Source of the DNA: Chromatiales bacterium
Lineage (GTDB): Bacteria > Pseudomonadota > Gammaproteobacteria > Chromatiales > Chromatiaceae
Direction: 5' to 3'
DNA length: 62,083 nucleotides
NCBI GenBank assembly: GCA_030145425.1
Contig: JAQYVO010000196.1
Span: 1 to 62,083 of the forward strand
Within the stretch, counting starts at the first letter, position 1; each line of letters begins with the position of its first letter. Made by a program: the position numbers and the translations under genes. Positions 1,650-18,927 of the stretch are shown here, one piece after another. Below the pieces are notes generated by a model. It worked only from the letters and a program-made list of their open reading frames with translations, searched no databases and was not told the DNA's origin.

Positions 1650-1928
1650 TCAGCGGTGAACCACGCTGTTGATGACGTACTTATACTCGAAGTAGACGGT
1701 GTAATCATCGTAGACCCAGCGGGTAATGGGAGGATCACCCACCCAGGGTACTTCGTTACCCGGCTCACCATAGTGACTGCGAACCTGGTCCATGCTCAGC
1801 CCCCGGGCCGGTTTTCCGACGGCCCCGGACTGGGCCTGTACCGCGTCGAAAAGTAGCACATCGGAATTTGCCACGGGTAATATGGTCAACAAAGTGAATG
1901 CAAACAAAAAGCGCGCCAGTAACTTCAT
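1650..1928 (-). CDS. Small exported protein of unknown function
   Basis: A 92-residue protein beginning MKLLARFLFAFTLLTILPVA, a clear signal peptide with probable cleavage after the ANS or nearby residues. The mature part carries GLSMDQVRSHYGEP, a short motif like the one found in SmpA/OmlA-type and other small envelope proteins, followed by a WVY-DDYTVYFEY strand-rich end. The start at 1928 is chosen because GGAGAGGAG lies directly upstream; an upstream in-frame start would add a non-hydrophobic leader ahead of the signal peptide. It is divergent from the lolC-like gene, whose ATG lies 85 bases away. The protein is likely periplasmic. Its function is unknown, and I do not assign it to the BAM complex. 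Confidence 0.75.
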   Translation of the reverse strand: MKLLARFLFAFTLLTILPVANSDVLLFDAVQAQSGAVGKPARGLSMDQVRSHYGEPGNEVPWVGDPPITRWVYDDYTVYFEYKYVINSVVHR

Positions 1929-2013
1929 CACATTGGACTCCTCTCCTGGTGATTTCGTATAGAATACAACATCTACAAACTCCCTCGCCGGAATCTGTTC
2001 TAACTTTCCGTTC

Positions 2014-3261
2014 ATGATCAAGCCGCTACCACTTTATATCGGACTGAGATACACCCGTGCAAAACGGCGTAATCACTTTATTTCCTTCATCTCACTGACT
2101 TCAATGCTGGGAATCATGCTGGGTGTGGTGGCCCTCATTACTGTGTTATCGGTCATGAACGGATTTCATAAAGAGGTACGTGAACGAATTCTAGGTATGA
2201 CCTCCCACGCTGTGATCGGGGCCTACGATGGGGAACTGACGGACTGGGAGGAGGCGATGCGCCTGGCAAAGGAGCATCCGAGTGTCATTGCGCAGGCACC
2301 GTTCGTGGAGGCACAGACCATGCTGACCAACGGGGGGAGGGTCAGCGGTGCCATGCTGCGGGGCATCCTGCCCGAATTTGAGAACCAGGTCTCGGATGTC
2401 TCCGAACACATGATCTCCGGTAGCCTGGAACTGCTGGTCCCCAAGGAATACGGCATCGTGCTGGGCAAGGAGCTGGCATACACCCTGGGCGTCGGGCCGG
2501 GGGACAAGGTTACGGTGGTCACACCCCGGCTCAGGGTCACGCCGGCAGGGGCCATGCCCAGGTTGAAGCGCTTTACGGTGAAGGGGATTTTCGAGGTGGG
2601 AATGGGAGAGTATGACAGTGGTGTGGGATTGGTCCACCTGAGAGACTCCGCCGCACTTCTCAATATTAAACAAGGGGTTACAGGCGTAAGACTGAAACTC
2701 GATGACCTCTATGAGGCACCCCGCATATCTCGCGAACTCGCCAACCGTCTCCCGGGGGTTTACCGGGTCAGCGACTGGACATACCAGCATCGGAATTTCT
2801 TCAGTGCGCTGCGCACGGAAAAACGCATGATGGGGCTTATACTGTTTCTAATCGTTGCCGTGGCTGCATTTAATATCGTCTCGACCCTGGTCATGGTGGT
2901 GACGGACAAACAAAGCGATATCGCCATTTTGCGTACATTGGGGGCGTCGCCGGGGACCATAATGGGTGTGTTCATCATCCAGGGGGCCACGATCGGGATC
3001 GCCGGCACGCTCCTGGGGGTCCTCGGCGGCGTAGCCCTGTCACTGAATCTGGAACAGATCGTCCAGTGGATCGAACACACATTCGGGTTCGACTTTCTGG
3101 ACCCGAGCATCTACTACATCAGCACCCTTCCCTCGGACCTTCACTGGGATGATGTCGGCATTGTCAGTCTCAGCGCCTTCGTCATTACGCTGCTCGCCAC
3201 CCTGTATCCCGCATGGCGGGCGTCCCGGGTCCAACCGGCCGATGCGCTTCGTTATGAATAG
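2014..3261 (+). CDS. lolC: Lipoprotein-releasing ABC transporter permease LolC/LolE type
   Basis: A 415-residue inner-membrane permease of the LolCDE complex, which extracts mature lipoproteins from the inner membrane for transfer to LolA. The start ([20 protein letters not shown]) is the family hallmark. One helix near residues 22-45 is followed by a large periplasmic domain and three helices near 273-296, 316-345 and 381-401, the usual MacB/FtsX-like arrangement. It ends in an ATGA overlap with lolD. Only one permease gene is present; lolE is not adjacent, so this may be a LolF-like homodimeric system, or the second permease may lie elsewhere. The protein is full length. Confidence 0.95.
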
Positions 3262-3934
3262 TCGCCCTGTTCTGGAGTCCCGTGATCTGGTGAGGACCTT
3301 TACCGACGGGAAACTTCAGGTGGACGTCCTCAAAGGGGTGACCCTGCAAGTAGAACATGGCGAGCGCATTGCTGTCGTGGGCAGTTCGGGATCCGGCAAA
3401 AGCACATTGCTGCACTGTCTGGGCGGCCTCGATCTCGCTACCGGCGGAGAAGTATGGGTCGAAGGCCAAAACCTGGAGACGCTGAACGAAAAAGCGAGGG
3501 GCCTTCTTCGCAACCGAACCTTGGGGTTTGTCTACCAGTTCCATCACCTGCTCCAGGAGTTCAGCGCCCTGGAGAATGTGGCAATGCCGCTGCTGATCGC
3601 GGGTATGGATCTGCAGACCGCACGCAGCCGCTCAACCCGCATGCTGGAACGCGTCGGGCTGGCCGAAAGGATTCTCCACAAGCCGGGGGAATTGTCGGGC
3701 GGTGAACGCCAGCGCGCCGCAGTGGCCCGCGCCCTGGTCACGGAACCCCGTTGCGTTCTGGCGGACGAACCTACCGGAAATCTGGATCGGAATACCGCGC
3801 TGCAGGTCTATGATCTGATGCTCGAACTCAATCATGAGATAGGAACCAGTTTCGTCGTGGTGACCCATGACCTGGAACTGGCGGGTAATATGGACCGGGT
3901 GCTCAACCTTCAGGACGGCAAGCTGGAAGAATAA
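3254..3934 (+). CDS. lolD: Lipoprotein-releasing ABC transporter ATP-binding protein LolD
   Basis: The 226-residue ATPase of the Lol system. It shows Walker [10 protein letters not shown] at residues 43-51, a Q-loop in [10 protein letters not shown], the signature LSGGERQR, Walker [13 protein letters not shown] and the H-loop VVTHD. The start at 3254 overlaps the permease stop by 8 bases (the ATG lies inside GTTATGAATAG), indicating translational coupling. A longer in-frame extension upstream overlaps the permease and lacks family similarity, so it is rejected. The pair is followed by a REP-like hairpin and a convergent gene. Confidence 0.95.
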
Positions 3935-11469: not shown

Positions 11470-13566
11470 ATGGGCTATCTTCGAATCTTTTCAGGTGATG
11501 CATCCCCTGAGCAACTGGAACTCTCATGTGAGAGCACCAGTATTGGCCGGGGGGATGAGAACGGTATCGTTCTGAAGAGTAAAGGCGTATCGATGAACCA
11601 CGCCATTATCGAGAAAAAAGGCCATGCCTTTATCCTCGTCGACAAAGACAGCGCCAATGGTGTCTATGTAAACGGACAGCGCGTCCACCGGCACACGCTC
11701 AGACACTGGGACGAAATCCAGATTTTCAGGCATGTTCTCATGTTCGTGGACTTTGCCGAAGAGCCTTCTGTTGAAGCTGTCGAGTCGTTGCAGACACTCG
11801 CAATGCCGTCCCAGGATGAAACCATGCAGGTTGATATCTCCAGCCTCGGGGACCTGGTTAAACTGAAAAATCGGGCTAATGATCCCTCTTTAATGCAAAT
11901 GAGGGAATCCATCGGCAGTGCACCGACGTCCAGCAGTTTCCACTTTGTGAAATCACAGGTCACCAGGTACTCCACTCTGGGTATCGCGATTTCAGCATGC
12001 GCCGTCTTCATCGCGACTCTTATCACCAGCTATATCCAAACCGGTTCAATGAGTATTGCGAACCTTTTATCCGCACAACGAACGAACCCTGCACTCTGGA
12101 TACTGGATACCATACCTTTTGCCTTACTTTTTATGGGCAAATATGTCAATGCCCTAATGGCCTGCAGCGTCAATTCTCTTTTTCACAAACATTCCGCAGA
12201 CATGCAGCGTAAGACAGAGGCAATCGAATCCCAAGCCATGCACGATGCAACCCACGATTCTTTGACAGGATTGCCCAACAGGTTATTGTTCCGGGATCGG
12301 CTGGAACAGGCGCTGTTGGGTACCCGTCGCAAGCAACACCTTCTTGCCCTTCTGGTGTTGGATCTGGATCGCTTCAAAGAGATCAACGATACCCTCGGCC
12401 ATCGCAGCGGTGATCGGCTGTTGAAACAGATCGCAGTGCGGTTGAAAGAGGTAGTGCTACCCACGGATACCCTCGCCCGTCTTGGCGGCGACGAATTCGC
12501 CATCCTACTGCCGTCCCTGGATTCTGAAGACGATATACAGGATGCTGTCAAAAAGATTCAGCGTTCCTTTTCCACGCCATTCGTGATCAACAGGATGAGC
12601 CTGGATGTACAGGCGAGCATCGGAATCTCCCTGTCACCCAAACATGGGCTCGATGTGGATACCCTTCTGCAACGAGCGGATGTTGCCATGTACGTGGCAA
12701 AAGACAATAAGCGCCACTTCTATATCTACGATCCCCGTGTAGACAAACACAGCAACTGGCGTCTCAGTCTGCTTGGCCAACTACGACAAGCCATTGCAAA
12801 CGAAGACCTGCAACTGCACTATCAACCCAAAGTGGCGGCCGATACGGGACAAGTACAGGGAGTGGAAGCCCTGGTTCGCTGGAACCACCATCAATTCGGT
12901 CTGGTGTCGCCCGATGAGTTTATTCATCTCGCTGAGCAGAGCGGCTTGATCATTGAAATGACGCGCTGGGTAATGCGCACCGCAGTAGATCAGATCATGT
13001 CCTGGCACGCCCAGGGAAGAAATCTCGGCATCGCGGTGAACCTCTCTCCCTCGGCCCTGCTCGATCCCGAGTTTCCCGACTTCATGGCGGGTCAACTGGC
13101 ATCCTGGAAGCTGCCTCCTGGCACTCTCACCCTGGAAATCACAGAATCCACGCTCGTAAAGGATCCGGAACGCGCCCTGGAAGTATTGGATCAGCTGGCA
13201 AACCAGGGTATCTCTATCTCCATCGACGACTTCGGCACCGGCTACTCTTCCCTGGCATATCTGAAGAAGATGTCTGCCTCTGAATTAAAAATCGACAAGG
13301 CCTTCGTAGCTGAAATGCTCACCAGCGAAAGTGATGCGGCCATTGTTCAGGCGACTATAGATCTGGCCCATAACCTGGACCTCAAAGTCGTGGCCGAAGG
13401 CGTGGAGAATGCGGAAACTGCCCGGGCACTCGCTCAACTGAAGTGCGACTCCCTGCAAGGCTACCATTTCTGCCCCCCATTACCGTCGGATCAGGTTAAT
13501 GAGTGGCTGGTGTCTCGAAACATTCACAGTATCCAGGGACATCGAAGGTTGAGAAGTGTACGTTAA
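11470..13566 (+). CDS. FHA domain, membrane-anchored GGDEF-EAL cyclic-di-GMP protein
   Basis: A 698-residue protein with four parts. An N-terminal FHA domain (about 1-100) keeps the phosphothreonine-binding residues: Arg27 in IGRG, Ser41 and His44 in SMNH, Asn63 in SANGVY. Two hydrophobic segments follow near 168-189 and 207-230. A diguanylate cyclase domain has GGDEF intact at 339-343, but the inhibitory-site Arg position is Leu (LPTD before TLARL). A phosphodiesterase domain has EAL at 466-468 plus ESTL, DDFGTGYSS, KIDKAF, AEGVE and QGYHF. Both catalytic halves look competent, so net direction cannot be predicted. A cytoplasmic FHA domain on this scaffold, 91 bases before a Ser/Thr kinase gene, suggests control by phosphothreonine recognition; that is inference. 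Confidence 0.93.
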   Translation: MGYLRIFSGDASPEQLELSCESTSIGRGDENGIVLKSKGVSMNHAIIEKKGHAFILVDKDSANGVYVNGQRVHRHTLRHWDEIQIFRHVLMFVDFAEEPSVEAVESLQTLAMPSQDETMQVDISSLGDLVKLKNRANDPSLMQMRESIGSAPTSSSFHFVKSQVTRYSTLGIAISACAVFIATLITSYIQTGSMSIANLLSAQRTNPALWILDTIPFALLFMGKYVNALMACSVNSLFHKHSADMQRKTEAIESQAMHDATHDSLTGLPNRLLFRDRLEQALLGTRRKQHLLALLVLDLDRFKEINDTLGHRSGDRLLKQIAVRLKEVVLPTDTLARLGGDEFAILLPSLDSEDDIQDAVKKIQRSFSTPFVINRMSLDVQASIGISLSPKHGLDVDTLLQRADVAMYVAKDNKRHFYIYDPRVDKHSNWRLSLLGQLRQAIANEDLQLHYQPKVAADTGQVQGVEALVRWNHHQFGLVSPDEFIHLAEQSGLIIEMTRWVMRTAVDQIMSWHAQGRNLGIAVNLSPSALLDPEFPDFMAGQLASWKLPPGTLTLEITESTLVKDPERALEVLDQLANQGISISIDDFGTGYSSLAYLKKMSASELKIDKAFVAEMLTSESDAAIVQATIDLAHNLDLKVVAEGVENAETARALAQLKCDSLQGYHFCPPLPSDQVNEWLVSRNIHSIQGHRRLRSVR

Positions 13567-13657: not shown

Positions 13658-15454
13658 ATGTCCAAAATAAAGATCCCAGGCTTCAGAATCGAAAGATTCA
13701 TCGCAGAAGGCGGCATGGCATCTGTTTTCCTGGCTGTTCAGGTATCTCTCCATCGCAGCGTCGCACTCAAAATACTTAAGAAATTCGACAGCCCTGAACA
13801 TGCCGAGCGCTTTCTGCGTGAAGGGCGCACCATCGCCTCTCTCAATCATCGCAACATCATCACCATTCATGATATCGGCGTTATCGACGACCGTCACTAT
13901 ATTTCCATGGAATACCTGGATGGCGGCTCCCTGCGTGAGCGGATCGATGCCCGCATGCCGGAGTCGGATATTCTGGATCTGATGGAAAGTATCTGCAGTT
14001 GTCTGGATTTTGTGCATCGCAAAGGAATTATTCACCGCGATATCAAGCCCAGCAATATACTGTTTCACACTGACGGTACGGCGAAGCTGACCGATTTCGG
14101 GATTGCCAAACAACTGAACAGTGATCAGGACCTGACCATTGACGGCAGTGCCTTTGGCAGTCCTTATTATATTAGTCCTGAACAGGCTGAAGGTCATAAG
14201 CTGGACGGTCGTGCCGATATTTATGCATTGGGCATCATCTTTTATGAGATGCTGACCGGGAAAAAACCCTTCGCGGAGAAGTCCCATCTAGAGACTATCC
14301 TTGCCCATCTCACCCATCCGATACCCAAGCTTCCGAAAGTGTATTCGAAGTACCAGGTCTTGCTGGAGCACATGATTGCCAAAGCTCCGGGCGATCGTGC
14401 AGCATCCGCAAAAGAGCTGTTGGATCTGATTCAGAAGTTAAGACTTTTCGATGTACCTTCACGAAGCAAAAATACCGGGACTCCCCAAAAGCGCTTATCA
14501 ATAGACTGGGCCAGGAGCCTCGGTATCGAATGGGTAAAACGATTACGCCCCTCATCCATGAAAAAAGGAACCATTATCGAATGGCGAAGACGTTTACGAC
14601 CGTCATCCATGACAAAAGGACCCATTATTGAATGGGTAAAACGTCTACGACCGTCATCCATAACTCAAGGAACCCTTAACAAATGGGTAAAACGGTTGCA
14701 ACAGTCACCCATGGCTCGTCAAGGCATTACGATTATGGCCTTCCTATTAGTGGCAATTGGAATAGGTATACCGCTGTATGGCCACTTGAACCAGCGGAAT
14801 CATGAAGCTGCGGTCGAATCGGTGTCAGTCAATAGAGAAAATCCTGTTGAGGAAATATCAGTTAAAGAGCCACTGACAGTGCAGTCGGAAAAACCCATTC
14901 CGTCAGCAATCCCAGTGATACTTGAGGAAAAAGAGCCGGACAATCAGAATTCGATGCCGGAGTCATTGATACAACCTGTGGACAATACGGCTTTAAAACA
15001 ACCGGAGGTTGAGAAAGCTTTTATACAACCGGTTGATGAGAGGGCTCTAGCGGTAAGCCAATTGCTTGAAGCTGGAGACCGGGCGTTGAAGGCTTATCGC
15101 CTGACCACGCCGTCCAAGGACAACGCCTTTTCACACTATCAAAAAGTAATCGAGCTGGATCCCGACAATACAGATGCCAAAGCGGGTATCGCGAAGATTG
15201 CTGATACCTATGCACGGTTGTCACACAACGAAATAAATAAGCAGAACTACCGGTTGGCACGAGTTTATCTATGGCGTGGAGCCAAAGTGGAGCCCGGTAA
15301 TGCCACATGGCCCAAGTTGGATTCCGAAATCAAGAAATTGGAACAATCAAAAGTGGCAGAACTAAAGCAACAACCTAAATCCGTACAGGATAAAAAACAA
15401 AAAGTTAAATTTTCAGAACGTTTCAAGAAATTCTGGCAGTCACTCAAAAAGTGA
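13658..15454 (+). CDS. Membrane Ser/Thr protein kinase (Hanks type) with TPR-like extracytoplasmic end
   Basis: A 598-residue protein. The cytoplasmic kinase domain (about 1-270) has a glycine loop IAEGGMASVFLAV, lysine in SVALKILKK, HRDIKPSN with catalytic Asp, DFGIAKQL and SPEQAEG, all as in active PknB/Stk-like kinases. A basic juxtamembrane linker consists of four 17-residue tandem repeats (residues 290-357), then one helix (MAFLLVAIGIGIPLYG) near 363-380. The outer part has a short duplicated IQPVD motif and a TPR-like region (FSHYQKVIELDPDNTDA) before a lysine-rich tail. It follows the FHA-GGDEF-EAL gene on the same strand. No PP2C phosphatase gene is near, although one is common beside such kinases. 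Confidence 0.93.
   Translation: MSKIKIPGFRIERFIAEGGMASVFLAVQVSLHRSVALKILKKFDSPEHAERFLREGRTIASLNHRNIITIHDIGVIDDRHYISMEYLDGGSLRERIDARMPESDILDLMESICSCLDFVHRKGIIHRDIKPSNILFHTDGTAKLTDFGIAKQLNSDQDLTIDGSAFGSPYYISPEQAEGHKLDGRADIYALGIIFYEMLTGKKPFAEKSHLETILAHLTHPIPKLPKVYSKYQVLLEHMIAKAPGDRAASAKELLDLIQKLRLFDVPSRSKNTGTPQKRLSIDWARSLGIEWVKRLRPSSMKKGTIIEWRRRLRPSSMTKGPIIEWVKRLRPSSITQGTLNKWVKRLQQSPMARQGITIMAFLLVAIGIGIPLYGHLNQRNHEAAVESVSVNRENPVEEISVKEPLTVQSEKPIPSAIPVILEEKEPDNQNSMPESLIQPVDNTALKQPEVEKAFIQPVDERALAVSQLLEAGDRALKAYRLTTPSKDNAFSHYQKVIELDPDNTDAKAGIAKIADTYARLSHNEINKQNYRLARVYLWRGAKVEPGNATWPKLDSEIKKLEQSKVAELKQQPKSVQDKKQKVKFSERFKKFWQSLKK
14525..14728 (+). repeat. Four 51-bp tandem repeats in the kinase linker
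   Basis: Four in-frame units of 51 bp encode 17-residue repeats of the form IEWVKRLRPSSMKKGTI, IEWRRRLRPSSMTKGPI, IEWVKRLRPSSITQGTL and a diverged NKWVKRLQQSPMARQGI. Each unit is strongly basic with a Trp and a Ser-Ser pair, and the block lies directly before the membrane helix. Confidence 0.92.
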
Positions 15455-15519: not shown

Positions 15520-17769
15520 TCAGATCAACTCCACATCAGAGATGATCTCCACCAGCGCCGGTCCTTCATGTGCAATGGCCCGGATCACAGCTTCCTCAAG
15601 ATCCTGCAATGCGGAAACCCTGATCCCGTAACCACCACAGTTACGGGCAAACTCTGAGAAGTTCGGATTGTGCAGGTCGGTCTGCCAAACAGAAAAATGG
15701 GCCGCACGTTGCTCCTTGGAGATCTTGCCGAGTTCCGTGTTGTTCAACAGGATATGGGTAAGATTCATATTATATTTCACCGCAGTGGTAAATTCTGCGA
15801 GATACTGGCCGAAACCACCGTCGCCGCTGATGGAGATTACCGGCCTGCCCTTGTGTTGTTCGTCCGCGCAGGTCGCCGCCCAAGCCCCCATAGCTGCCGG
15901 AAAGCCAAACCCTATGGACCCCAGGTATCCGGACATCAATACGCTCTGGTTCTTGCATTCGAAATATCTGCCGAAAGAATAGGTGTTGTTTCCCACGTCC
16001 ACCGCGAGAACGGCATTTTCGGGGCAGATCCGGGAGAGGACACTGAAGATAGCTGCGGAACTCAGGCCTCTTCCGCGGTCTCTTTGTTCACGGCGCCGCT
16101 TCTCTCCTCGCCACACCGCCCAGCGCTCAGCAAGTTCCTTACGCTGATCGACGAAACCCTGTCCGGATTTTTTCTCCATAGCGCCGATGATTTGGTGACA
16201 GGTGACACCTATCTCTCCCCAAACCGGGATGTCCACCGCGTGAAACTTGCCCAATGCCATCTGGTCGAAATCGACCTGAATGATCGATTTTTTTGGCGTG
16301 ATCCCTGTGTGGTTGGAAAACGAGGCACCGAACACGATGAGCAGATCGGTCTTGTTCATAAACCAGCTCGCCACCGGGGTGCCACTCCTGCCAAGCACGC
16401 CCCCGGCAAGCGGGTGTTGATCGGATAACTGGCCTTTGGCCTTGAAGGTGGTGAGCACCGGCGCATTGAGAAGTTCAGCCAGTGACATCACTTCAGACAT
16501 GGATTCGCGGGCACCGTAACCCACGATGATGACCGGTCTGCCGGCATCTCTGATTTTCTCCACCGCAGCAGCCAGGCTGTCCCGGGAAGGTGATATCGCC
16601 CTGTCAGACAGTCTGCCCTGGGGCGAGGAGATGGCTGATGCCGCGTCGTCCCGCAGCGGTATCACCTGCACTTCATCCGGAAAGATCAGGTGGGATACAT
16701 CCCGTTCGACAATGGCATGTTTCAGGGCCAGCGCCATCAGCTCACTATGCCTGCTGTTGGGCAGGACGGTCTGGCTGAAAGAGCTTACCGCAGAAAATGC
16801 ATCTGCCAGATCGATCTCCTGAAATGCACCCGGCCCCAGCACCTGGGTATTGACCTGTCCCGTCAATGCGAGCACTGGTGCCCTGTCGACCTTGGCATCC
16901 CACAACCCGGTGAGGAGATTGGTCGCACCGGGGCCGGCTATGGTGAGACAGGCCGCGGGTTTTCCCGTCAGCTTGGCGAAACCGGAGCAGGCGAAAGCGG
17001 CGGCCCCTTCATGCCGAATCCCAATGTAGTCGAGATTGCCCTGCTCCACTTGATCCCGAACGGCATCAGCAAGCCCAAGATTGGAATGCCCGACCATACC
17101 GAAAACATGGGAAACCCCCCACTCCACCATGGTCTCCACCATGACATCGGATACCGTGCGATCCTTCTCCAGGGATTCCTTGATGCAGACATATATGCCG
17201 TCCTCACGCTGATCCACCGGATAGGTTTCGACACCGTCCTCAAATCCCCCCGGGGATTTTCCTGTCAGTGGATGGTAGTCCCAGCCGTGCCATGGACACC
17301 GCAGCCAGCATTCACCATCCTCGCTGCATTCGATGCTCCCCTCCCCCAGCGGTCCGCCCTGGTGAGGGCAGGCATTATCCAATGCCGCATATTGTTCCTG
17401 GTAATAGACGAGTGCGACTGTCTTGATGCCCGCCTGTACCGTGCGTATCTCCCCATCCTGCATCTCACCGGACGCTGCCACTTTGTACCAGGTATTCTTC
17501 AAACCTTTATCGGCATCCAGGTCTTCACTGGTGATCTGCTTATGACTGCCATCGCAAAAGGGGGGATTCTGAGTCTGCTTGCATTGGCATAGAAAATACT
17601 TGTCATCCTTTTCAACCTGGAAAGTATGGGGTGAAAATTCTGTACCCCTGTGTGAACCGTCGCAGAATGGCTGATTACTGCTGCGGCCACAGCTGCACCA
17701 GTTGTAGCCCTTGCCTGATTTCAAGTCGACGGGCATTGGTCGGGTATCCGCAATCTTTGGCCTGGCCAT
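15520..17769 (-). CDS. Fusion of two CDGSH iron-sulfur motifs, a Rieske domain and a ThDP-dependent enzyme
   Basis: A 749-residue fusion without visible signal peptide. Two CDGSH motifs hold ligands Cys25, Cys27, Cys36, His40 and Cys61, Cys63, Cys72, His76. A Rieske [2Fe-2S] domain (about 93-200) has CPH at 134-136 and CPWH at 158-161. From about 205 a complete ThDP enzyme of the acetolactate synthase/pyruvate oxidase superfamily follows, with catalytic Glu254 in RHEGAAAFA, GPGATN, and the cofactor motif GDG at 649-651 to NN at 676-677. Together they could carry three iron-sulfur clusters plus ThDP. The likely chemistry is decarboxylation of a 2-oxo acid linked to electron transfer, but the substrate and any FAD need are unknown. 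AGAGGAG precedes the ATG. It is divergent from the amidase gene at 18010. Confidence 0.93.
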   Translation of the reverse strand: MARPKIADTRPMPVDLKSGKGYNWCSCGRSSNQPFCDGSHRGTEFSPHTFQVEKDDKYFLCQCKQTQNPPFCDGSHKQITSEDLDADKGLKNTWYKVAASGEMQDGEIRTVQAGIKTVALVYYQEQYAALDNACPHQGGPLGEGSIECSEDGECWLRCPWHGWDYHPLTGKSPGGFEDGVETYPVDQREDGIYVCIKESLEKDRTVSDVMVETMVEWGVSHVFGMVGHSNLGLADAVRDQVEQGNLDYIGIRHEGAAAFACSGFAKLTGKPAACLTIAGPGATNLLTGLWDAKVDRAPVLALTGQVNTQVLGPGAFQEIDLADAFSAVSSFSQTVLPNSRHSELMALALKHAIVERDVSHLIFPDEVQVIPLRDDAASAISSPQGRLSDRAISPSRDSLAAAVEKIRDAGRPVIIVGYGARESMSEVMSLAELLNAPVLTTFKAKGQLSDQHPLAGGVLGRSGTPVASWFMNKTDLLIVFGASFSNHTGITPKKSIIQVDFDQMALGKFHAVDIPVWGEIGVTCHQIIGAMEKKSGQGFVDQRKELAERWAVWRGEKRRREQRDRGRGLSSAAIFSVLSRICPENAVLAVDVGNNTYSFGRYFECKNQSVLMSGYLGSIGFGFPAAMGAWAATCADEQHKGRPVISISGDGGFGQYLAEFTTAVKYNMNLTHILLNNTELGKISKEQRAAHFSVWQTDLHNPNFSEFARNCGGYGIRVSALQDLEEAVIRAIAHEGPALVEIISDVELI

Positions 17770-17812
17770 TAGGGTCTCCTCTGGTGAAAGTTAATGTTCT
17801 TTGGAACTTTAA

Positions 17813-18009: not shown

Positions 18010-18927
18010 ATGTCGCAAATGGCAGGGGTTCTTTTCGACAAAGTCATTGCCGCACTGATTCAGCTCCCCTGCGGAGCGCATAAAGCGGACAATATACTGA
18101 ATCTGGAGCGGAATATCCGGGTAGCTGCCGATTCAGGTGCCGATCTGGTCCTCCTGCAGGAACTGCATGACAACCGCTATCTTTGTCAATCCGAGGACAT
18201 GGCCTGTTTCGACAAGGCTGAAACCATTCCCGGACCCACAACGAAGCGCCTGGGGAAGCTGGCGGCCGAACTGAAGCTCGTTGTCGTTGGCTCGGTATTC
18301 GAAAAACGGGCGCCGGGGCTCTACCACAATACCGCGGTGGTGCTCGACAGGGACGGAAGCCTGGCCGGATATTACCGGAAAATGCATATCCCCGACGATC
18401 CGGGCTATTACGAAAAATTCTACTTTACCCCCGGCGACACAGGATTCAGGCCCGTGGCCACCTCTATCGGTAATCTCGGGGTCCTGGTTTGCTGGGATCA
18501 ATGGTTCCCGGAAGCTGCGCGTTCAATGGCCCTTGCCGGGGCCGATATGCTCCTGTATCCCACAGCGATAGGCTGGAATCCGCAAGACGAACTCCCGGAA
18601 CAGAGCCGTCAATTGGACGCCTGGATAACGGTACAGCGCGGACACGCGATCTCCAACGGGCTGCCCCTGCTGACCTGCAACAGGGTGGGAATGGAGCCAG
18701 ACCCTTCCGGAAATTCCTCCGGCATTCTGTTTTGGGGTCACTCCTTCGCCTGCGGGCCCCAGGGAGAGATACTCGCTCAGGCTGAAGAAACAGAGCAGAT
18801 GCTGCTGGTGGAGATGGATCTGAAGCGAATCGAATCGGTCAGAAACAGCTGGCCTTTTTTTCGGGACCGGCGCATCGATGCCTATGAAAGGCTGCTATTG
18901 CGATTCGACGATACTGACGGTGATTGA
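18010..18927 (+). CDS. aguB: N-carbamoylputrescine amidase (carbon-nitrogen hydrolase)
   Basis: A 305-residue nitrilase-superfamily enzyme. The catalytic triad is visible: Glu in LVLLQELHDNRY, Lys in YYRKMHIPDDPGYYEKFYF, and Cys in GVLVCWDQWFPEAAR. The DPGYYEKFYFTPGD and TAIGWNP stretches are typical of AguB, which converts N-carbamoylputrescine to putrescine, ammonia and CO2. The usual partner, agmatine deiminase, is not in the window. The start at 18010 follows TTAGGA; an ATG three codons later is possible. It is divergent from the ThDP fusion gene. Confidence 0.9.
   Translation: MSQMAGVLFDKVIAALIQLPCGAHKADNILNLERNIRVAADSGADLVLLQELHDNRYLCQSEDMACFDKAETIPGPTTKRLGKLAAELKLVVVGSVFEKRAPGLYHNTAVVLDRDGSLAGYYRKMHIPDDPGYYEKFYFTPGDTGFRPVATSIGNLGVLVCWDQWFPEAARSMALAGADMLLYPTAIGWNPQDELPEQSRQLDAWITVQRGHAISNGLPLLTCNRVGMEPDPSGNSSGILFWGHSFACGPQGEILAQAEETEQMLLVEMDLKRIESVRNSWPFFRDRRIDAYERLLLRFDDTDGD

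Follow-up and report, generated by a model that had tools for sequence, protein, structure and literature searches.

A CDGSH-CDGSH-Rieske-ThDP protein from a Chromatiales bacterium, its Rieske-ThDP family and a recurrent glutamate-synthase-type neighbour

The gene and its protein

The stretch of DNA analysed here (the window; 62,083 nt, contig JAQYVO010000196.1 of the Chromatiales bacterium assembly GCA_030145425.1) carries a gene that stands alone on the minus strand, with plus-strand genes on either side, and that combines two CDGSH domains, a Rieske domain and a ThDP enzyme module in a single chain. Its GC content (0.561) is close to that of the window (0.557). The features are as follows.

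15520..17769, minus strand: complete CDGSH-CDGSH-Rieske-ThDP open reading frame, 749 aa, ATG start, uninterrupted; full-length homologues share the domain order
17776..17782, minus strand: ribosome-binding site AGAGGAG, by direct reading 6 nt 5′ of the ATG
17647..17724, minus strand: CDGSH motif 1, aa 16-41, ligands C25, C27, C36 and H40
17539..17616, minus strand: CDGSH motif 2, aa 52-77, ligands C61, C63, C72 and H76
17188..17493, minus strand: Rieske domain, aa 93-194, ligands C134, H136, C158 and H161
16807..17157, minus strand: ThDP enzyme N-terminal domain, aa 205-321, with the activating Glu254 (17008-17010)
16192..16572, minus strand: ThDP enzyme middle domain, aa 400-526, loops strongly conserved
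15544..15999, minus strand: ThDP enzyme C-terminal domain, aa 591-742, with GDG...NN and the LGKIxKEQ signature containing Lys682
13658-15454, plus strand: Ser/Thr kinase, neighbour of the fused gene
18010-18927, plus strand: N-carbamoylputrescine-amidase-like gene, neighbour of the fused gene

The first-pass annotation had described two CDGSH clusters, a Rieske cluster and a full ThDP module in one open frame behind a good ribosome site, and this description holds. Pfam profiles matched all modules of the protein with E-values of 1e-16 to 1e-34: zf-CDGSH in two stretches (66.9 bits, cut-off 29.5), Rieske at aa 93-171 (58.9 bits, cut-off 20.3), and TPP_enzyme_N (aa 205-321, E 2e-33), TPP_enzyme_M (aa 400-526, E 9e-31) and TPP_enzyme_C (aa 591-742, E 2e-33). 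The tandem CDGSH part contains two C-x-C-x8-CDG-x-H sites with about 20 residues between them, the Rieske part has the C-x-H ... C-x2-H ligands in addition to its profile match, and the Glu254 and GDG-to-NN motif of the earlier description are read in the protein as E254 (RHEG, 252-255), GDG at 649-651 and NN at 676-677. From these ligand residues, the protein is predicted to bind three iron-sulfur clusters and ThDP. The AlphaFold2 model reached a mean pLDDT of 88.9 and a pTM of 0.82.

The neighbouring kinase has a ~19-residue unit (WVKRLRPSS..) that is repeated in its C-terminal part and followed by a probable membrane helix, and the FHA-GGDEF-EAL protein encoded at 11470-13566 of the window probably has two membrane helices.

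Distribution and origin of the fused architecture

A scan of 84,980 species genomes was analysed for its best 80 loci. The CDGSH-CDGSH head was found on five of these, all from Gammaproteobacteria, and the remaining 75 encode Rieske-ThDP only, their alignment to the window protein starting at about residue 90. In 92 related genomes, seven full-length copies besides the window protein were found, with 67-89% identity to it, and a copy in G002 is cut by the contig end. Altogether, 11 distinct homologues keep the CDGSH-CDGSH-Rieske-ThDP order. In an alignment of 55 family members, no CDGSH ligand varies among the 11 fused proteins, and the Rieske ligands, E254, G649/D650/G651, N677 and Lys682, which lies inside the signature LGKIxKEQ, are invariant throughout; the loops of the middle domain rank among the most conserved stretches. 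The unfused Rieske-ThDP proteins of this alignment share 62-68% identity with the window protein.

When a maximum-likelihood tree was built from the Rieske-ThDP part, all 11 fused sequences fell into one clade (SH-aLRT 100), which is nested among unfused members and stands beside two unfused Gammaproteobacteria. With this nesting, a single, late gain of the CDGSH pair is the simplest account, and the four-module chain is most simply read, as far as the sequences can tell, as a late gammaproteobacterial elaboration of a Rieske-ThDP core family. A frameshift, a gene join or an assembly error can be excluded, since 11 distinct homologues keep the order of the domains, none of the 12 cluster ligands varies among them and the fused proteins fall into this single gammaproteobacterial clade. 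An origin of the head from a constant neighbour gene, as in a Rosetta-stone arrangement, was rejected after a motif scan that found no CDGSH gene near any unfused locus, and a phage origin was rejected as well, as matches were limited to 28-32% identity over the ThDP half, in unannotated contigs. The CDGSH-GltS gene and a stand-alone CDGSH protein are both candidate sources of the head; an 80-residue tree contained only one strongly supported branch. Three loci (L031, L032 and L125) have a separate gene for a tandem CDGSH protein in the vicinity of the fused gene; in L032 it begins the locus pair on the upstream side, at a distance of about 120 bp.

The Rieske-ThDP family itself occurs in 16 bacterial phyla, counted from record titles, including Cyanobacteriota, Acidobacteriota, Planctomycetota, Gemmatimonadota, Nitrospirota, Myxococcota, Bacteroidota, Actinomycetota, Calditrichota and Latescibacterota. 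Its genes are present on both chromosomes and plasmids: plasmid records of four haloarchaea contain Rieske-ThDP genes whose products are 57-59% identical to the window protein, and one of Mycobacteroides abscessus contains a copy with 52% identity, all five being annotated merely as 'thiamine pyrophosphate-binding protein'. Cultured organisms with an unfused homologue include Leptothoe kymatousa and Haloferax larsenii. We are dealing with a highly conserved family (~57-68% identity from Gammaproteobacteria to other phyla and haloarchaea) for which we found no described function, and of which the window protein, with its three predicted iron-sulfur clusters per chain, is the most elaborate form. 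The earlier statement that no characterised protein of this architecture is known agrees with our literature search, in which no description of CDGSH-CDGSH-Rieske-ThDP, Rieske-ThDP or Rieske-GltS proteins was found in open-access papers; as subscription journals lie outside this scope, it is weak evidence of novelty.

The glutamate-synthase-type partner and other neighbours

At 40 of the 75 unfused loci we noticed a gene that joins a Rieske domain to an FMN/[3Fe-4S] glutamate-synthase-type (GltS) domain, some copies being partial at contig ends. At least 27 of these genes, from many phyla, are directly adjacent to the Rieske-ThDP gene and co-directional with it, with a gap of at most 131 bp or an overlap. 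Intact copies keep the Rieske ligands and a C-x5-C-x4-C motif, which fits the [3Fe-4S] site of glutamate synthase. In Gammaproteobacteria, the partner often has CDGSH-CDGSH where others have Rieske: in the fused genome G026, a CDGSH-CDGSH-GltS protein (type 5 CISD) is encoded about 20 bp downstream of the fused gene, and CDGSH-GltS is found also in G340, where the ThDP gene is unfused, and in G345, where it is fused. Across 321 gammaproteobacterial genomes, 46 were above the partner threshold (Rieske or CDGSH heads) and six had a ThDP orthologue; the two sets share five genomes, and in the remaining ThDP genome, G345, a CDGSH-headed copy is truncated by the contig end. The hypergeometric p value of this co-occurrence, which ignores kinship, is 3e-4 without the G345 copy and 7e-6 with it.

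The linkage extends to the haloarchaea, where Rieske-GltS is present on three of the four plasmids that hold the Rieske-ThDP gene, with both genes within 7 kb in Salinirubellus and Halorarius and both on one plasmid in Halorubrum. The genome of the window has a Rieske-headed partner as well, at 1676-3292 of another contig, contig 45.

L114:1111-2730, L114:2849-3679 and L167:4241-5551, window genome, contig 45: the partner, followed by a DUF5996-like gene, by egtB, which exceeds the equivalog cut-off, and, at the contig end, by the start of egtD

No partner orthologue was found in the fused genomes G016, G032, G052 and G044, the last of which is closed and 100% complete, and the partner is therefore not obligatory and cannot be the sole acceptor. 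These results change the earlier picture in two respects. The enzyme had been called self-contained, which does not hold: Rieske and ThDP domains make up the core, a separate gene for a [2Fe-2S]-FMN-[3Fe-4S] partner usually lies nearby, and CDGSH was added once, in one clade of Gammaproteobacteria. The electron acceptor had been left unnamed; the Rieske- or CDGSH-headed GltS-type neighbour, recurrent as it is, now provides a concrete candidate for an electron-transfer partner, although several fused genomes do not have this gene.

The replacement of a Rieske domain by a CDGSH pair at the same position of the partner hints that CDGSH (NEET-type) domains may act as plain electron carriers. NEET proteins are capable of whole-cluster transfer (PMC5859297), and this, like the free-standing CDGSH pairs near three of the fused genes, would suit a different role, in which the pair of the window protein would store or donate iron-sulfur clusters in the manner of NEET proteins, repairing the Rieske cluster and staying outside catalysis. 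We consider this very improbable because a CDGSH pair, replacing Rieske, is the sole [2Fe-2S] head on many GltS partners, and an electron carrier fits that position better than a cluster store.

Several other genes recur in these neighbourhoods. A DUF5996-like gene, with a Pfam match below the cut-off, is found at about 20 loci, a Na+/H+ exchanger at 11 unfused ThDP loci and once on the Halorarius plasmid, and a flavodoxin-like gene on the M. abscessus plasmid as well as at eight loci of cyanobacteria. About 15 loci encode a membrane protein that resembles ferric reductases and has a Rieske domain at its C-terminus; in L085, L093, L100, L052, L075, L039 and others, its gene is paired with that of a ~260-aa protein, for the L038 copy of which there was no Pfam or NCBIfam match. 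As a universal partner the ferric-reductase-Rieske protein was rejected for the fused clade, as its gene was absent from the fused genomes searched, in a search that had no internal positive control. Carbonic anhydrase genes occur at four Nitrospirales loci and in G032, where genes for a di-haem c-type cytochrome and carbonic anhydrase (L160:6334-8003) come after the fused gene in the same orientation. The ergothioneine genes egtB/egtD were seen at several gammaproteobacterial loci and one Desulfobacterales locus, and egtB and/or egtD are close to Rieske-GltS, Rieske-ThDP or DUF5996-like genes in L056, L069, L088, L109 and L168, a proximity that hints at a link to low-molecular-weight thiol metabolism. 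The haloarchaeal plasmid copies (L162-L165) lie amid merA, arsenic-resistance, peroxiredoxin, DsrE and TauE genes, and on two of these plasmids DHFR-like and M20 hydrolase genes come after Rieske-GltS. Neighbours such as merA, arsenic-resistance, peroxiredoxin and ergothioneine genes suggest redox or stress physiology, without naming a substrate. A cluster of antisense-ORF neighbours in GC-rich loci, a probable gene-caller artefact, was left out.

Some of these neighbours would also be compatible with the two enzymes acting as parallel donors: the GltS-like protein would be an amino-acid (glutamate-type) dehydrogenase, the ThDP enzyme would oxidise the product 2-oxo acid, and both would feed a common carrier, which might be the membrane ferric-reductase-Rieske protein, a flavodoxin or another one. 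The own [2Fe-2S] head on each enzyme, the occurrence of the two carrier candidates (ferric-reductase-Rieske and, at nine loci, flavodoxin-like genes) and the M20 and aspartoacylase-type hydrolase genes that flank the pair on haloarchaeal plasmids are in line with this arrangement, but no ferric-reductase-Rieske gene was found in the fused genomes searched and glutamate-synthase domains are known to work reductively, and we judge it quite unlikely.

Relation to pyruvate oxidases and a possible route for electrons

The placement of the protein in the ThDP superfamily by the first-pass annotation is borne out and can be narrowed. By NCBIfam, PDB sequences and PDB folds, the ThDP half is closest to pyruvate oxidase, PoxB and pyruvate:quinone oxidoreductase (PQO), with AHAS also close; TPP_enzyme_N, M and C follow each other in order and, together with the Glu and GDG...NN residues and the fold, place it in the pyruvate oxidase/AHAS superfamily. 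Comparison of the AlphaFold2 model with the PDB gave VIA-align Z values of 38-42 over ~500 residues (rmsd ~2.5 Å), the matches being AHAS, pyruvate oxidase, PoxB, PQO and HKA synthase. The substrate is not readable from the family, since no NCBIfam equivalog cut-off was reached (best NF006377, 395 bits versus 742).

PoxB (3eya/3ey9), Lactobacillus plantarum POX and Corynebacterium glutamicum PQO (9ev3-9ev6) share the three-domain ThDP fold with the window protein at ~25% identity over the ThDP half. E254 is equivalent to E50 of PoxB and F316-Q317-E318 to F112-Q113-E114, and the GDG...NN motif is common to both. There are also differences. The window protein has Lys682 where PoxB has Phe465, and with this lysine in place of the aromatic residue of pyruvate oxidases its chemistry may differ. 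PoxB delivers electrons to ubiquinone via a membrane-binding C-terminal tail, which is missing from the window protein, as this ends at residue 749 and the alignment stops at PoxB residue 527 of 572. Finally, compared with POX and PQO, the window protein adds an N-terminal Rieske (+CDGSH) module.

We arrive, with middling confidence, at a reading of the window protein as a cytoplasmic pyruvate-oxidase-like oxidative decarboxylase from which electrons would exit via the Rieske domain and the CDGSH pair, likeliest to the GltS-type partner. A 2-oxo acid, the presumed type of substrate, would add to ThDP and be decarboxylated, and the ThDP-bound intermediate would give up its electrons one at a time, in two steps; FAD may take part, bound in the middle domain, where pyruvate oxidase and AHAS have their FAD site. 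The Rieske cluster may serve as the electron exit, functionally replacing the lost PoxB-type membrane tail, and the two CDGSH clusters of the gammaproteobacterial fused clade may form an extra relay at this exit. The probable acceptor, where present, would be the FMN/[3Fe-4S] GltS-type partner with its own Rieske or CDGSH-pair head, and proteins of the window type would be expected to dock to partner proteins bearing such [2Fe-2S] heads. The gene neighbourhoods agree with an exit of electrons via [2Fe-2S] domains.

The main competing reading, close to the redox-sensed ThDP enzyme that the first-pass annotation had offered as an alternative, is a lyase or ligase whose AHAS- or hydroxyacyl-CoA-lyase-like ThDP core does non-redox chemistry and is redox-sensed or structurally stabilised, the Rieske and CDGSH domains only sensing redox or shaping the oligomer. 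AHAS and hydroxyacyl-CoA lyases have the same fold and perform no net redox chemistry, the FAD of AHAS being structural and thus offering a parallel, and the folds of AHAS, HKA synthase and hydroxyacyl-CoA lyase match as well as that of PoxB (Z ~39-42). The invariant Lys in place of the aromatic POX residue Phe465 and the fused genomes without a partner point the same way. We nevertheless regard such an enzyme as unlikely, given that PoxB and PQO, which match best by sequence, are redox members of the superfamily, that the Rieske domain is kept in all 55 aligned members and that the neighbourhood is rich in Rieske and flavin proteins.

The interpretation of the fusion as a redox enzyme is thus partly supported, and the observation is real and more general than the four-module chain, its main object being the Rieske-ThDP family together with the Rieske- or CDGSH-headed GltS partner. 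In its most far-reaching form, the oxidative-decarboxylase reading would describe a two-enzyme module of 16 phyla and haloarchaea, in which 2-oxo acid oxidation by a ThDP enzyme is wired via Rieske/CDGSH domains directly to an FMN/[3Fe-4S] GltS-type enzyme, neither NAD(P)H nor free ferredoxin being involved, with interchangeable CDGSH and Rieske heads and three clusters per chain in the clade of the window protein; this wider proposal is tentative and on balance doubtful.

Transfer of electrons from a ThDP enzyme to iron-sulfur clusters is known from the 2-oxoacid:ferredoxin oxidoreductases, which are absent among the matches listed and have a different domain set ([4Fe-4S] and another ThDP subfamily). 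Rieske ferredoxins such as CarAc (1vck) and T4MOC (1vm9) match the Rieske domain of the window protein (E ~1e-7 to 1e-5) but are separate carriers for oxygenases, whereas here the domain is covalently attached to a ThDP enzyme. The type 5 CISD proteins defined by Lin et al. 2011 (PMC3174974) have a redox enzyme behind the same kind of tandem CDGSH head, which is joined to a glutamate-synthase FMN domain; in place of Glu_synthase the window protein has Rieske and ThDP, and hence it falls outside type 5. The type 6 CISD MmCISD (3tbn; E 1.8e-23) and human CISD3 (6avj) are tandem CDGSH proteins like the head of the window protein, but they stand alone with 79-90 aa, whereas the pair described here is joined to an enzyme.
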